A DNA stretch of 64,000 nt from Tardiphaga sp. 709 (lineage in GTDB: Bacteria > Pseudomonadota > Alphaproteobacteria > Rhizobiales > Xanthobacteraceae): contig NZ_CP135529.1 of the NCBI RefSeq assembly GCF_032401055.1, positions 5,826,501 through 5,890,500 on the forward strand, read 5' to 3'. The first letter of the stretch is position 1; each line of letters opens with the position of its first letter. Under the pieces are notes generated by a model. The model worked only from the letters and a program-made list of their open reading frames with translations, was not told the origin of the DNA and ran no database searches. This document shows positions 51,688 through 57,652 of this stretch, in pieces. The position numbers and the translations under genes are program-made.

Positions 51688-52230
51688 CGATGGGTTTTGA
51701 TGATGGAACTCTAGTGCTCAAAGCCTTTAGGTTTGGTATCTATTGCCGTCAGCCAAATCTGGTAACCGGCTACTCATTAGCTGCTCTCGGCGACAAATGT
51801 TGACAGGTCGCGTCCAGCGGGACTGCCAGAAGGTTTCAAGAATAGCTTTGTTGTTTAAGTAAAAATGCCCGGACCGATGACGGGCCCGGGCGAGTTGACT
51901 TGATGTGGCGGACAAGCCGCCAGGATAAGTTACGGTATTCATTGACGAGGGTTTCGGGATGTGGCTGCAAAATGCAGGTTCCGCCGTCTCAAGGGTGTTC
52001 CGGAAGCCACGACTTGGTAAGGTTGCCGTGTGAATCGCTGGCGTTCGGGTCGGAAATGCCCCAGCATTATGCTACCTGTTACCCATTCCGCCCAAGAAAA
52101 GGGCGGTAAAAGCCCGTTCGGTGCGGTTTAAAACAGCCGCGACCGGTATATTCCTGCCCATTCGAGAAGATTTTATCTTGTCAATCGAACCTCTTACATC
52201 CTCATTCAGACCAACATTGCGAGACGGGCA
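51688..52230. other. 543-bp gene-free region upstream of the second ECF operon
   Basis: It separates the divergent diguanylate cyclase and ECF genes. A hairpin CCGCCC-N7-GGGCGG lies at 52088-52106, and a GC-rich inverted stretch occurs near 51868-51890. I find no RNA gene, operator or convincing promoter. Short frames here have no family resemblance. Confidence 0.5.
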
Positions 52231-52800
52231 GTGAGTGCAACACAGGCGGCATCGGATGAGATTCTGATCGCCCGGATTGCGCAAGGCGACCGTCTTGCCA
52301 TGCAGGTGCTTTATGGCAGGCACCATGTCCGGGTGTTTCGCTTCGGCCTTCGGCTGGTGCGGAACGAACAGATTGCTGAGGATCTTATCAGCGAGGTGTT
52401 CCTGGATGTGTGGCGGCAGGCAGGCAAATTCGAAGGCCGTTCCGCGGTCTCGACCTGGCTCCTGGCGATTACGAGGTTCAAGGCGCTGTCCGCGCTGCGT
52501 AAGCGCAAGGACGCCGAACTGGACGACGAGACGGCCAACGCAATCGAGGATACGTCCGATAATCCCGAAGTGTCGGTTCAGAAAAAGGATACCAGTGACG
52601 CGTTGCGGAAGTGCCTGACATCTCTTTCGCCCGAGCATCGGGAAATCGTCGATCTCGTCTACTACCACGAGAAGTCCGTGGAAGAGGTGGCCGAGATCGT
52701 TGGAATTCCCGAGAACACCGTCAAGACGCGCCTGTTTTATGCGCGCAAGAAATTAGCCGATCTGCTCAAGGCAGCCGGCATTGAACGAGGCTGGCCATGA
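52231..52800 (+). CDS. ECF (sigma-70 family) RNA polymerase sigma factor
   Basis: Product of 189 aa. Region 2 shows MQVLYGRHHVRVFRFGLRLVRNEQIAEDLISEVFLDVWRQAGKFEG, and region 4 has SPEHREIVDLVYYHEKSVEEVAEIVGIPENTVKTRLFYARKKLADLL. It recruits RNA polymerase to a small regulon. GTG 52231 starts the frame with GAGACGGG upstream. The stop overlaps the anti-sigma start (ATGA at 52797-52800), so the two are coupled. A subtilase gene 46 bp beyond the anti-sigma gene completes a probable three-gene operon. Confidence 0.9.
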   Translation: MSATQAASDEILIARIAQGDRLAMQVLYGRHHVRVFRFGLRLVRNEQIAEDLISEVFLDVWRQAGKFEGRSAVSTWLLAITRFKALSALRKRKDAELDDETANAIEDTSDNPEVSVQKKDTSDALRKCLTSLSPEHREIVDLVYYHEKSVEEVAEIVGIPENTVKTRLFYARKKLADLLKAAGIERGWP

Positions 52801-53525
52801 TGGCGATGAGCAACAAAGTGCCGACCCAGGAGCCAGGCGAGATCGAGGCATTGCTGCCTTGGCACGCCGCGGGCACGCTCAACGCGCGTGATGCTCGCCG
52901 CGTCGATGATGCACTGGCCAAGGATCCGGAACTGGCGAAGCAATATGCCGTGATCCAGGAAGAATACGCGGAGACCATTGGCCTCAATGAGAGCCTCGGT
53001 GCGCCGTCCTCACGGGCGATGCAGAAGCTGTTTGCCGCGATTGACGCCGAGCCGGTGCGCAGCGGATCGACATCGGTCGGTCTGTCGGCGCGGATTTCCG
53101 GATTTTTCGCATCGCTTTCGCCGCGGACGCTGGCGGCTTCGGCCGCTGTTGGCGCGCTCGCGATCATGCTGCAGGCAGGTGTCATCGGCACCGTACTGAT
53201 GCAGCGCGATACACGCACATTCCAGACCGCGTCCTATGAAGCCGCGCCGGCGCCAGCGAGTGCACCGACGGCTATCGTCCGCTCGATCGCACCGGCCTCG
53301 GTAGAAGCTCCGACGCGCCTGTTCGTCCGTTTTGCGCCGACTGCGCGGGTGTCTGACATCACAGCGCTGCTCGATGGCTATCAGGGCACGATTGTCGATA
53401 GCGGCAAGGACGGGTTGTTCCGGTTGCAGTTCGGCAATCGGGTAATGACCAAGGACCAGATCGCCGGGCTAATCCGCCGGCTGGAGAACGAGAAGATCGT
53501 CAGCATGGCGGTTCAGGCGCAATAG
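52797..53525 (+). CDS. Membrane anti-sigma factor with a subtilase-propeptide-like periplasmic domain
   Basis: Product of 242 aa. The cytoplasmic part (1-110) has the anti-sigma start pattern EIEALLPWHAAGTLNARDARRVDDAL, without the Cys/His zinc motif. One TM helix (112-135) is followed by an Ala/Pro linker (140-170). The periplasmic domain (172-240; TRLFVRFAPTARVSDITALL and VDSGKDGLFRLQF, then IAGLIRRLENEKIVSMAVQ) has the strand-helix-strand-strand-helix-strand pattern of inhibitor-I9 propeptides. The neighbouring subtilase has a similar prodomain at its residues 192-270. The similarity is by eye. The start is the ATG overlapping the sigma stop; two further in-frame ATGs lie within four codons. 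Confidence 0.82.
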   Translation: MMAMSNKVPTQEPGEIEALLPWHAAGTLNARDARRVDDALAKDPELAKQYAVIQEEYAETIGLNESLGAPSSRAMQKLFAAIDAEPVRSGSTSVGLSARISGFFASLSPRTLAASAAVGALAIMLQAGVIGTVLMQRDTRTFQTASYEAAPAPASAPTAIVRSIAPASVEAPTRLFVRFAPTARVSDITALLDGYQGTIVDSGKDGLFRLQFGNRVMTKDQIAGLIRRLENEKIVSMAVQAQ

Positions 53526-53571
53526 GCGCCGTCGGTTAATCCGATCCGCATTATGCGTGCGAGGCCTGTTC

Positions 53572-55359
53572 ATGAGACATGATCGTGGTGCCTCCAGATC
53601 AATGATGAAATGCACGGCCGCTGTGCTTTCGCTCGCCGTCGCATGGCCGTTCAGCCTTTCGGTCGCTGATGCGCAGAGCATGATGCGCTCGCCGAGTCTC
53701 AATATCGGATCGCGCGTTCCCACGATCGCTCCCAGCACAACGCCGCGCATCAATCCGAACATCGCTGCGGGCGCGGGCCGCATTGCCGGCCGCGGTCCGA
53801 ATATCGCGAGCCGCGGGCCCATTGCCGGTCGCGTCGGTATCACCAGCGTCGGCCCGCGCGGGGCGGCGATCGGGACGACAGCCAGCCGGACACCGCCCAT
53901 ATCCTCGCGGCCAGGGCGTACGCCGCTCCCGCCGAAGATCGTGGGCGTGCTGCCGACCATTCCTTATGTGCGTTATTCGCCGAACACCTATCCGAGCTGC
54001 GCCTATGCCAATCGCGCGGCATCCGGCGAGTGCAACGAGAAGCCATTCGTTGCAGATCTGGGTGGCGGCGGCCCGACGCCGCGCAGCCAGAATGCCCGCG
54101 GTGGACCGCGCAGCAATGGCCCACAGGCGGCCCTGAACACGCGTTATGTCCCACGGCAGATCATCGCCGAACTCGACGGTGCGCTGACGCCGGATCAGAC
54201 AGATGCGCTGGTGCGCCGTCTGCGCCTGGAGCGTCTGTCGTCGCAGGATTTTCCGCTGATCGGCGCCAATATCAGCCTGTTCCGCATCACCGACAATCGC
54301 TCGGTCGAGACCGTTGAGTCCCAGATGCGCGCCGAGGCTGACGTGCGTGCTGTGCAACCCAATTTCCGTTATGTGCTGCAGGACCAGGTGACAACGCCGG
54401 CACCGGGCGAGGGCGATCCCGCGCAATATGCGCTGGCGAAGCTGCGTCTGCCCGAAGCGCACAAGCTGTCCGCTGGTGCCAATGTCACGGTTGCCGTGAT
54501 CGACTCCGGCATCGACGTCGCGCATCCCGAACTGGCTGACGCCATCGTGGGGTCGTTCGATGTGCTCGGCAGCAAGGAAGGTGCGCATGTGCACGGCACT
54601 GGCATTGCGGGGGCGATCGTATCGCATGCGCGTCTGATGGGCAGTGCGCCGCGCGCGCGCATTCTTGCCATTCGTGCCTTTGGCGTTTCGCAGGGCGGTG
54701 CCGAGAGTTCGTCTTTCATCATCCTCAAGGGCATCAACCACGCGGCATTGAATGGCGCCCAGGTCATCAATATGAGCTTTGCGGGCCCGCAGGATCCGCT
54801 GATCGAGCGCGGTATTGCGGCATCGGCCAGCAAGGGCATCGTGATGGTCGCGGCGTCAGGCAATGCCGGGCCGAAATCGCCGCCGCTTTATCCCGCTGCA
54901 AACCCCAACGTGATCGCTGTCAGCGCCACCGATGCGTATGACAGGCTGTTCACCGCGTCGAACCGTGGCAGCCATATCGCGGTAGCTGCGCCGGGCGTCG
55001 ATATTTTTCTGCCCGCGCCGGACAACAAGTACCAGATGACGTCCGGCACCTCGTTCTCGGCGGCTTACATCAGTGGGCTCGCCGCATTGATGATCGAGCG
55101 CAATTCGCAACTGCGGCCGAACGAGATCCGCAGCGTCCTGATGACAACCGCGCGTGATCTTGGCGCGCCCGGCCGTGACGACCTGTTCGGTGCCGGCGCA
55201 GCGGATGCCTATAGTGCGGTATCGGCAGTGCAGGGCGCTCAGCAACCCGTGGCGACAGCGCCTGCGCCTGTGACGCCTGTTGTCGTCACCGCGCCTGCGC
55301 CGACGACACGTGCGGTCGAGGCGTCGTCGCCGTCGATGGCGTCAGACGTCCAAAAATAA
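53572..55359 (+). CDS. Secreted S8 family (subtilisin-like) serine peptidase
   Basis: Product of 595 aa. A signal peptide (about 1-35, ending VADAQ) is followed by a low-complexity Arg/Gly/Pro-rich region (40-125) and a segment with two cysteines (C143, C154). An I9-like propeptide (192-270) and the catalytic domain follow. The triad is D311 (AVIDSGID), H341 (HVHGTG) and S494 (SGTSFSA), with the oxyanion Asn N431 (AASGNAG). The Ala/Pro/Val/Thr-rich tail may span the cell wall or lie free. Start ATG 53572 (MRHDRG) is preferred over GTG 53557. Located 46 bp after the anti-sigma gene, it is likely co-transcribed. Confidence 0.9.
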   Translation: MRHDRGASRSMMKCTAAVLSLAVAWPFSLSVADAQSMMRSPSLNIGSRVPTIAPSTTPRINPNIAAGAGRIAGRGPNIASRGPIAGRVGITSVGPRGAAIGTTASRTPPISSRPGRTPLPPKIVGVLPTIPYVRYSPNTYPSCAYANRAASGECNEKPFVADLGGGGPTPRSQNARGGPRSNGPQAALNTRYVPRQIIAELDGALTPDQTDALVRRLRLERLSSQDFPLIGANISLFRITDNRSVETVESQMRAEADVRAVQPNFRYVLQDQVTTPAPGEGDPAQYALAKLRLPEAHKLSAGANVTVAVIDSGIDVAHPELADAIVGSFDVLGSKEGAHVHGTGIAGAIVSHARLMGSAPRARILAIRAFGVSQGGAESSSFIILKGINHAALNGAQVINMSFAGPQDPLIERGIAASASKGIVMVAASGNAGPKSPPLYPAANPNVIAVSATDAYDRLFTASNRGSHIAVAAPGVDIFLPAPDNKYQMTSGTSFSAAYISGLAALMIERNSQLRPNEIRSVLMTTARDLGAPGRDDLFGAGAADAYSAVSAVQGAQQPVATAPAPVTPVVVTAPAPTTRAVEASSPSMASDVQK

Positions 55360-55766: not shown

Positions 55767-56285
55767 ATGTCATCTCACCTGAATTTTCCTTACCCGCATG
55801 CCGGCATTGGTCGGCCACTGGCCCAGCGCTGGTGCGCTCTTGCCGAGAGCCGGCTGGATTACCTGACAGAATTGTTCGAGAGCGGGCGGTGGCGCCGTTT
55901 TCACAGTGAAGCCGAGTTTCTCGACAACATTCAGGAAGCCAAGGACGCGGTTGAACGCTGGCGGCTGATGGTCGAGGGCGAGACCGCCGCTGTGAGGCGC
56001 GTGCTGTCTTCGGAAGGGGTGATCTACCGGGCGCCGCGCGCCCCCGAACCACGGCCTGTTGCCGTTGCGGCTCCTGTCGTTGCAGCGGCGGTGGTTGCGC
56101 CGTTGCAGCCCGACATCGAGCCAGCGGCTGAACCGGCTTCGCCCGTCCTGATCCCGATCGAAACCCTGTTGCGGCAGGCGCCACCTCGGCAGGCGACGGT
56201 GACTCCGGCAGATCTGGATTGGCAGAAGGCGCTCGATCCTCTCGTCATGAGCGCGCGCTATCCGATGCTGCGGACAGCGCTTTAA
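55767..56285 (+). CDS. TIGR03809-like family protein (172 aa)
   Basis: Conserved N-terminus (1-75): PLAQRWCALAESRLDYLTELFESGRWRRFHSEAEFLDNIQEAKDAVERWR. A Pro/Ala/Val-rich linker (82-135) precedes a short conserved tail ending ARYPMLRTAL. I recognise it as the TIGR03809 family, known from Bradyrhizobium-group genomes beside TIGR03808 genes; no function is known. No signal or TM segment is visible; soluble and partly disordered. The start is ATG 55767. Its stop shares the palindrome TTAA with the stop of the convergent TIGR03808-like gene. Confidence 0.8.
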   Translation: MSSHLNFPYPHAGIGRPLAQRWCALAESRLDYLTELFESGRWRRFHSEAEFLDNIQEAKDAVERWRLMVEGETAAVRRVLSSEGVIYRAPRAPEPRPVAVAAPVVAAAVVAPLQPDIEPAAEPASPVLIPIETLLRQAPPRQATVTPADLDWQKALDPLVMSARYPMLRTAL

Positions 56286-57652
56286 CGCACCGTATTGCCG
56301 GACACTGCCACCTGCTGATAGCGCTGTGCGCCATCCGTGGTGAGGTCAGGTGTCACCGGCTTCGCATGATCGAGGCCGACAACAGCGCCGCGTGGCGCGC
56401 CCGAAATCATGTTGTTGCTGACCAGCGCGGTGCCGGCTCCCGGTGCGATCGATACACCGATGCCGATAAAACTGTTGCGCACCACGTTGCCGGTGATGGC
56501 GACATCGCGCAGATACTTGCCCCAGCCGGCGATCATGCCGAAGGACGGCGCGTTCTCGACGACATTGCCGCTGACGCTGGCGTCCGCCTCGATATAGATG
56601 CCTATGCCGGCATCGTCGTCGGGCGCTGTGCCGATCGGCCGCTTCGGCAGCAGGTTGCGGATAATATTGCCTTGCACGACGGCGATGCGTCCGCCCTCGT
56701 TGAAGTTGCAGACAGAGACGCCGAGCGCTGCGCCATCGACGGTGTTGTTGACAATGACCGCAGCCTCGAAGGCGAATTCCGAATAGAGCGCGACTTCGCG
56801 CACGCTCGACACGCTGTTGCCGGTGATGTGGATGTTCGATGCGGAATTGCCGCGCACGGCCGAGTAGTCGCAGTTGCGGATGCGATTGCCGGACACAATG
56901 ACATTGCCCGCACGAAATGCGTTGATGGCGTTGCCATACTGACCGGAACCGCCGGGACCGGCCTTGATGTCCTCGATACGATTGTCGATCACTTGCGTGC
57001 CGTCATCGCCGATGGCGGTGCGCAGTATCTCGATGCCGTTGCTGCTGGTGCCGGAAATGGTGTTTTGCGCGACGATCAATCCCTGCGCATCGAAGGAGAC
57101 GATCGCGGTGGTGGCGATGTTGGTAAGTGTATTGCCGGTGATCGCGCCCGCCGCGTTGTCCAGCCAGATGCCCGCGCCGCCGCTATTGGTGACGGTGCAA
57201 TCGGTGATGCGGAGTTCGCGCGCCTGCACCATGTGCAGCAGCCCGCGCCGCGGCGGCAGTTTGGCGAAGTTGCCGTCCAGCGTGAGGCCGCTGAGGCTGA
57301 CATAGTCCGCGCCTTCGCCTGATAGCAGTGACGCGCCGCCGCTGAAGGTGAGGGTCGTTGCGCCGCGCATGCCGATGATCTGCGAGCCGCGCGCGAGCCT
57401 GAGCATGCCGGTGCGATAGTTGCCGGGCGGCAATGCCAGCGGTGCCTGCGCGCGCGCCGCCTCGTCGATGGCGCGTTGCAATGCGCGGGTCTGGTCGTCC
57501 TGGCTATTGGCACGCACGCCATATTGCGTGGCGTCGCGCCCGAGCGTTGAGGTGAGCGGGGCGGCGCGTGCCGCGTCACTTGATGCAGCGAATGCGCCGG
57601 CGGCGAGACCTGCGCCGGACGCAGTCAGCAGATGGCGGCGATGCAGGTCCAT
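56282..57652 (-). CDS. TIGR03808-like Tat-secreted parallel beta-helix protein
   Basis: Product of 456 aa. It has a twin-arginine signal peptide (HRRHLLTASGAGLAAGAFAASS, about 4-25). Many NosD/pectin-lyase-type repeats follow: TGNTLTNI, AQNTISGT, SGNRIRNCDYSAVRGNSASNIHITGNSV, VNNTVDG, VQGNIIRN, SGNVVENAP and TGNVVRNS, making a right-handed beta-helix of about ten coils. It recalls carbohydrate-acting or surface-binding proteins, but no catalytic set is evident. I recognise the TIGR03808 family, which occurs with TIGR03809. The convergent overlap with that gene suggests antisense interaction rather than shared transcription. Confidence 0.85.
   Translation of the reverse strand: MDLHRRHLLTASGAGLAAGAFAASSDAARAAPLTSTLGRDATQYGVRANSQDDQTRALQRAIDEAARAQAPLALPPGNYRTGMLRLARGSQIIGMRGATTLTFSGGASLLSGEGADYVSLSGLTLDGNFAKLPPRRGLLHMVQARELRITDCTVTNSGGAGIWLDNAAGAITGNTLTNIATTAIVSFDAQGLIVAQNTISGTSSNGIEILRTAIGDDGTQVIDNRIEDIKAGPGGSGQYGNAINAFRAGNVIVSGNRIRNCDYSAVRGNSASNIHITGNSVSSVREVALYSEFAFEAAVIVNNTVDGAALGVSVCNFNEGGRIAVVQGNIIRNLLPKRPIGTAPDDDAGIGIYIEADASVSGNVVENAPSFGMIAGWGKYLRDVAITGNVVRNSFIGIGVSIAPGAGTALVSNNMISGAPRGAVVGLDHAKPVTPDLTTDGAQRYQQVAVSGNTVR

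Follow-up and report, generated by a model that had tools for sequence, protein, structure and literature searches.

A subtilase prodomain-like domain in a membrane anti-sigma factor encoded beside a subtilase in Tardiphaga

In the genome of Tardiphaga sp. 709 (Pseudomonadota; Alphaproteobacteria; Rhizobiales; Xanthobacteraceae), three genes in a row on the + strand encode an extracytoplasmic function (ECF) sigma factor, a membrane anti-sigma factor and a secreted subtilase of peptidase family S8. Coordinates are those of the window, the whole 64,000-nucleotide stretch that was analysed (assembly GCF_032401055.1, contig NZ_CP135529.1, positions 5,826,501 to 5,890,500). The sigma gene (52231–52800) has a GTG start and encodes 189 amino acids (aa) that match Pfam Sigma70_r2 and r4_2 and, above cutoff, NCBIfam PRK12515. 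Its stop overlaps the start of the anti-sigma gene (52797–53525) by 4 bp, which couples the two. The 242-aa anti-sigma factor consists of a cytoplasmic anti-sigma domain, one transmembrane (TM) segment (residues ~112–136, 53130–53204, a hydrophobic stretch read by eye), a linker and a C-terminal domain (CTD; residues 172–240, 53310–53516), the subject of this analysis. The subtilase (53557–55359) is 600 aa as called; its true start is possibly the ATG at 53572, and its signal peptide was read by eye. A propeptide (residues ~194–272, 54136–54372) precedes the catalytic domain (residues 307–547, 54475–55197; Pfam PF00082, Peptidase_S8, E = 7.8e-44). Its catalytic residues are D316, H346 and S499; a 40-row alignment shows D316 and H346 as invariant, with conservation of at least 90% for N436 and S499. 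A first-pass annotation had named these three genes, and both its coordinates and its identities proved correct.

With its N-terminal domain, single predicted TM segment and coupled gene, the window protein has the build expected of a membrane anti-sigma factor that partners an ECF sigma. Matches to zf-HC2 and other anti-sigma profiles are weak: of 27 relatives, 25 show zf-HC2 at E ≤ 1, the domain passes its cutoff in 6 distant ones, and the window's own protein has no Pfam match above cutoff, zf-HC2 included. A search of its own genome returned only the protein itself, and the four nearest named relatives found (Tardiphaga and Bradyrhizobium) are 93–97% identical.

Structure prediction gives the CTD the ferredoxin-like fold of subtilase prodomains. 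In AlphaFold models, the CTD (mean predicted local distance difference test score, pLDDT, 84) and the subtilase propeptide (block means of 78–91 over model residues 11–90) both run β-α-β-β-α-β, the strand–helix order that the first-pass annotation had proposed for the pair; the catalytic part of the subtilase model is poor and the whole-model mean is 61. Among the 50 matches listed by Foldseek for the CTD against the PDB, the four top TM-scores all belong to the PC1/3 prodomain (TMq 0.62–0.68; next, an ACT domain at 0.61), and the prosegment of subtilisin BPN′ (1spb_P) stands at rank 2. The best matches of the subtilase model are pro-subtilisin E, Pro-S324A mutants, fervidolysin and ProN-Tk-SP. 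The comparison of predicted structures that the annotation had proposed as a check thus shows folds that agree, with prodomains leading by TM-score.

One element of a prodomain is missing. Propeptides of the I9 type inhibit subtilases, help them to fold and are cleaved by them; in subtilisin, the prodomain chain runs on past its last strand into the active site as an inhibitory tail. In the CTD, the last predicted strand spans residues 235–240 of a chain that ends at 242. Of 175 proteins, 146 stop at this same point, four residues past residue 238, a count that includes many close Bradyrhizobium relatives (L239 and L242 were left out of tail and linker counts). Because the chain stops two residues after that strand, at the same place in so many proteins, the CTD lacks the active-site tail of I9 prodomains.

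As Pfam does not recognise the window's CTD, we built family profiles and compared them by hhalign. Profiles from the window's family alone (58 CTDs and 40 propeptides) align collinearly over 63 columns at 67.7% probability, or 60.0% with gappy columns removed; none of 300 column shuffles reached the real score, and a reversed profile gave 6%. When 21 segments of 87 columns along the S8 alignment were scanned, only the segment holding the whole propeptide gave 63 columns (61%), the next two, which cover the second half of the propeptide, giving 28% over 30 columns. Wider profiles, made from 115 of the 175 CTDs (most close Bradyrhizobium rows omitted) and 99 propeptides, align collinearly over 63 columns at 94.5% (E = 8e-8), with a score of 39.1 against a shuffle mean of 10.0 and a maximum of 17.0, so that again 0 of 300 shuffles reached it. 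Profiles from other families alone (38 CTDs, 39 propeptides) gave 88.6%. The pattern that the annotation had seen in residues 172–240 and in the propeptide is therefore shared beyond chance, as a collinear alignment of nearly full length. About 8% of residues are identical between the aligned profiles, so the kinship is a relation between profiles, and the single motifs named by the annotation are weak evidence when taken alone.

In a few orthologs from other orders and classes, Pfam itself identifies the domain. We scanned 40 anti-sigma proteins with Pfam (27 relatives including the window's own, and sets of 3 and 10), and two passed the cutoff of 21 for the prodomain family PF22148 (Fervidolysin_NPro-like): L305 with 27.0 bits and L312 with 24.7 bits. 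The Sphingobium anti-sigma factor that lies beside its S8 gene (L244) falls just under it (20.4 bits, E = 7e-4); among the remaining 37, which include the window's protein, PF22148 does not appear in the listed matches. A CTD profile built without L305, L312 and L244 nevertheless matches them at 1.1e-14, 3.8e-13 and 1.8e-6. For comparison, the window's subtilase propeptide itself matches the same Pfam family below cutoff (residues 194–269, E = 0.011, 16.5 bits).

Sequence profiles and predicted structures together confirm the CTD as a real relative of subtilase prodomains. The alternative, a chance resemblance between two unrelated ferredoxin-like folds, draws on the weakness of the Foldseek E-values (none at 0.001 or below, with ribosomal S6, ACT and RRM domains also listed), on chance matches of the CTD profile to GlyA-like proteins (L321 and L322, 3e-5 to 8e-5), and on a failure of the most distant sequences by themselves: 19 distant CTDs against 14 distant propeptides gave 5% over 27 columns and no alignment, a point against kinship. 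The same 19 CTDs gave 90% against Rhizobiales propeptides, and neither the 63-column alignment unmatched by any shuffle nor the two orthologs above the Pfam cutoff is expected under chance; we consider this alternative very improbable, and a chance match of folds was rejected on the shuffles, the reversed profile and the segment scans. The GlyA-like proteins (serine hydroxymethyltransferases by eye) are a warning about weak matches to so small a domain.

Nor was the prodomain simply moved out of the protease: relocation from the S8 protein into the anti-sigma factor was ruled out, as the subtilases of these modules keep their own propeptide regions, by profile matches or, in the unmatched L242, L306, L307 and L308, by eye. 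The module subtilases of L306 and L307 (4615–6336) have an N-terminal TIG-like stretch under the Pfam cutoff; none was seen in L308.

The association of the module with the subtilase reaches far beyond this genome. In families of the order other than the window's own, the anti-sigma factor was found in 79 genomes, from which we chose 40 loci; all 40 have an S8 gene (L225 in two pieces). It lies directly downstream in 34, upstream of the sigma gene in five (L207, L211, L220, L237 and L240) and on the opposite strand in one (L239), so that six loci have an altered order; because S8 was kept in these rearranged loci, the link has survived changes of gene order. Beyond the order, most matches of the anti-sigma search cover the N-terminal domain only. 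The 18 distant loci, from 17 genomes, comprise 9 of 11 genomes of the class together with all 9 further places that reached E ≤ 1e-10 beyond the order, G520 not included; the GlyA-like L321 and L322 were dropped from these counts. Sixteen of the 18 have S8, with none at L318 and L320, which makes 56 of 58 fetched loci outside the window's family. The survey of co-occurrence that the annotation had suggested thus finds the module conserved beside a subtilase in distant lineages. The association between the sigma/anti-sigma pair and the subtilase is old, and it loosens in the window's family.

The sequence upstream of the sigma gene is consistent with autoregulation. A promoter-like element, GAACC-N17-GACC, was read at 52187–52212 (+ strand) 5′ of the window's sigma gene, where relatives have the consensus GAACC-N16-CGAC. 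The strict pattern GAAC[CT]-N15-18-CG[AT]C, searched within ~300 bp 5′ of the sigma start, misses the window's deviating copy. Among loci of other families it occurs in 36 of 40 (at 35–65 bp; mean of shuffled sequences 0.5), within the window's family in 108 of 139 (shuffled mean 2.0) and among distant loci in 5 of 20 (shuffled mean 0.3). In the same three sets, a promoter of the S. meliloti type (GGAA[TC]..CGTT) was found 5′ of sigma at 0/40, 0/139 and 1/20 loci. A separate S8 promoter is seen in few rearranged loci: of 8, L220 alone has the motif ≤500 bp ahead of the longest frame. Across the window's genome, the regulon pattern search returned 5 sites against 2 in the control. By its position and pattern, the element would suit autoregulation of the operon, with the subtilase as a member wherever it lies downstream.

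These results support an anti-sigma factor that carries a divergent, tail-less subtilase prodomain on its periplasmic side, as judged from sequences and models. That it is encoded beside the protease in many relatives suggests a switch that reads the state of that protease. We tentatively favour, with a little less than even confidence, a reading in which the tethered, tail-less prodomain engages the mature cognate subtilase and free, active subtilase is read as the signal. The CTD would engage the mature enzyme through the surface that prodomains use, possibly by way of its sheet; docking would bring the protease beside the short juxtamembrane linker or alter the exposure of the linker; the anti-sigma factor would then be cut or rearranged; and the released sigma factor would transcribe its own operon, including more subtilase, in positive feedback. 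We infer the docking, the cutting, the feedback and the direction of control. The reading can be extended to a self-sensing circuit, in which mature subtilase, on shedding its own prodomain, is caught by the tail-less copy and free protease so sets sigma activity, the prodomain having been recruited early in Pseudomonadota and re-used after loss of the protease; this larger claim is possible, and we hold it with still more reserve.

The linker between TM segment and CTD bears on what a docked protease might do. In other families with S8, its median length is 20 residues (quartiles 20–21.75, n = 38). It is at most 49 residues in all 147 S8-linked proteins and exceeds 50 in 10 of 26 S8-less ones, a contrast of p = 3e-4 within the family that is uncorrected for kinship, the test on independent pairs having only 4 supported pairs. 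This is suggestive of a limit on the linker that is set by the protease. The same contrast would be expected if the subtilase were a site-1 protease that cuts the linker with no prodomain-like docking, and known circuits do have periplasmic site-1 proteases such as DegS (PMC8103513). Such a role would leave the prodomain kinship of the CTD unexplained, and S8-less lineages would be without this cleavage; we regard it as unlikely.

Several observations weigh against engagement of the subtilase by the CTD. First, the missing tail makes classical product-like inhibition of the I9 type, or cleavage at that site, unlikely.

Second, the subtilase is often absent in the window's own family, where the anti-sigma factor occurs in 129 of 198 genomes. 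Of 128 of these (G029 was not counted), 83 have S8 within 2.5 kb; in 16 it lies only elsewhere, with contig ends involved in several, and in 29 no S8 reaches E ≤ 1e-40, counts made with only the best few candidates per genome scored and with some assemblies fragmented; one locus counted as having none (L053) has broken S8 pieces alongside. The 45 of 128 genomes without S8 inside 2.5 kb keep the CTD. A second search of ten among these 29, scoring all candidates this time, found no S8 at 1e-40 (best 2.9e-21), and nothing better than 1e-10 was found in G169, G124, G140, G189, G050, G170, G072 and G129, of which G169, G124, G140 and G170 are single-contig genomes. The anti-sigma tree (83 rows, 81 of known state, with L060 and L053 set to unknown) requires a minimum of 13 changes in the presence of S8, on a short alignment that leaves 27 of 80 inner branches open; L071 (no anti-sigma factor found), L079 and L146 (contig ends) were excluded before counting. 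Because S8 is often missing while the CTD stays, the subtilase is not obligatory. The annotation had held that frequent occurrence of the domain without a subtilase neighbour would speak against its interpretation: this is the case within the family and not outside it, and the interpretation is partly supported, by the prodomain fold and profile of the CTD and by the conserved neighbourhood.

Third, selection on the CTD persists without the protease. In an S8-less Tardiphaga-type clade, the CTD has a mean ratio of nonsynonymous to synonymous substitution rates (dN/dS) of 0.05 (15 pairs, 6 proteins), against 0.26 in S8-bearing relatives (5 proteins, 9 usable of 10 pairs); purifying selection of this strength implies that the CTD of this clade works without this S8. 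The contrast was not repeated across the family, where disjoint pairs gave medians of 0.46 without S8 (13 pairs) and 0.25 with S8 (51 of 53 usable; p = 0.23; L053 and L060 left out).

Fourth, tests of coevolution do not single out the CTD. Given sigma, the correlation of distance matrices is 0.15 for CTD and propeptide against 0.09 for anti-sigma domain and propeptide, and 0.24 for CTD and catalytic domain against 0.33 for anti-sigma domain and catalytic domain. Label permutations beat the real values in 1 and 0 of 500 cases, with the anti-sigma domain equal or better for the catalytic domain. Cognate pairs of CTD and propeptide are no closer than permuted pairs within the window's family; they do beat within-group permutation overall (6 of 2000), solely through groups outside the family and with descent not removed. 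The linker trend is likewise not separable from descent, as four supported pairs give no power.

The chief alternative takes the subtilase for no more than a gene driven by the sigma factor: the CTD, prodomain-derived or of the same fold, would now sense something else, and the shared neighbourhood would reflect co-transcription. This account explains why S8 can be missing from many lineages in which sigma factor, anti-sigma factor and CTD stay, and why the CTD is constrained without S8 in one clade. S. meliloti adds a parallel: RpoE6 drives a neighbouring serine protease gene (PMC6180224), and the anti-sigma open reading frame (ORF) there has no match to the CTD profile. Left unexplained are the presence of a prodomain-type sensor beside the very class of enzyme that prodomains bind, and a link that has come through changes of gene order and stands at 56 of 58 loci outside the family. 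We regard an output-only subtilase as a serious possibility, though a less than probable one. Engagement of the subtilase by the CTD, our preferred reading, accommodates the S8-less lineages if the CTD may serve there without the subtilase, perhaps with another protease; since some lineages have lost the subtilase, the CTD can evidently serve without it.

A further alternative makes the CTD a membrane-tethered inhibitor or folding helper that shields the periplasm from the subtilase, with signalling secondary. Inhibition and assisted folding are what I9-type domains do, and the anti-sigma factor RsiV inhibits the enzyme that it binds (PMC5014341). The absence of the active-site tail from the CTD, the propeptide regions that the module subtilases retain and the persistence of the CTD where S8 is lost all tell against this role; we think it quite improbable.

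Two sets of side observations concern the surroundings of these genes. Downstream of the window's subtilase, a TIGR03809 family protein (55767–56285) adjoins a TIGR03808 TAT-translocated repeat protein (56282–57652, minus strand). At S8-less loci such as L033, L034 and L048, a similar small (TIGR03809-like) protein was seen by eye 3′ of the anti-sigma gene, as if S8 were cleanly missing between the two. Away from the anti-sigma gene, 13 of 20 S8 paralogs fetched (L171, L172, L174, L175, L176, L179, L180, L181, L183, L186, L188, L189 and L190) lie C-terminally in frames of ~1460–1850 aa with an internal prodomain. For one of these, L188, Pfam reports GLUG repeats as well as a TPS secretion domain; by eye, L174 and L186 are similar; proteins of the L188 type look like subtilases fused to a two-partner-secretion exoprotein.

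If the preferred reading is correct, the prodomain of a protease would have become the receptor that reports the activity of that protease to transcription, an instance of a prodomain taken over by a regulatory protein. It would also supply a defined ligand for widespread ECF systems, for which we found no description of the signal in open-access literature. Even without docking, the homology supplies a first name for the domain, which Pfam misses in 38 proteins out of the 40 scanned, in one by a small margin. No description of an anti-sigma factor with a prodomain-type domain was found in full-text searches of one open-access library, a scope outside which most subscription papers fall.

Among known systems, the protease-controlled anti-sigma factor of E. 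coli shares the broad layout. DegS is an inner-membrane protease of the HtrA family, and to our knowledge RseA has no prodomain-like domain. In the RseA-DegS-RseP system, control of a membrane anti-sigma factor lies with a periplasmic protease (PMC8103513), which is the likeness to the action envisaged here.

Closer in gene content is the RpoE6-EcfR6 system. The ECF26 sigma factor RpoE6 of S. meliloti activates the neighbouring serine protease gene SMa0142, and this layout is reported to be widely conserved within the ECF26 group (PMC6180224). Such activation, like the binding of lysozyme by RsiV, is also a precedent for the preferred reading. On the pSymA stretch that we analysed, which is unannotated, the protease ORF beside the sigma and anti-sigma ORFs is an S8 peptidase, likely SMa0142. 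The two systems have in common an ECF sigma factor, an anti-sigma factor with one TM segment and an adjoining serine protease gene, which in S. meliloti is activated by the sigma factor. They differ in that the two sigma factors are 30% identical over 148 positions, the protease gene is divergent in S. meliloti and the CTD profile finds no match in the EcfR6-like anti-sigma ORF; judged on sigma similarity and the anti-sigma C terminus, the window's system does not fit the RpoE6 type. In both S. meliloti pSymA (L245) and an Aminobacter plasmid (L246), S8 is divergent from the sigma and anti-sigma genes, the anti-sigma C terminus has no CTD-profile match and a GGAATA..CGTT motif lies 5′ of the S8 gene.

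The subtilase prodomains themselves (I9, PF22148) share with the CTD the predicted fold, the profile and, through two orthologs, a Pfam match above cutoff; the CTD differs from them in standing on a separate membrane protein and in having no C-terminal extension into the active site. The RsiV-type extracellular domain, which we take to be DUF3298, is absent from the Pfam matches at E ≤ 1 of the window protein and the relatives scanned. In logic, the nearest known system is nonetheless RsiV of Bacillus subtilis, a membrane anti-sigma factor that binds and inhibits lysozyme, whose presence leads to release of sigma-V (PMC5014341), so that the annotation's statement that no circuit of this logic had been described was too strong. 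The Tardiphaga protein would share with RsiV the sensing of an enzyme beyond the membrane. For RsiV, that enzyme is foreign and is recognised through a different domain, whereas in Tardiphaga the candidate ligand is the cell's own protease, encoded in the same operon, and the candidate receptor is a domain of that protease's own prodomain kind.

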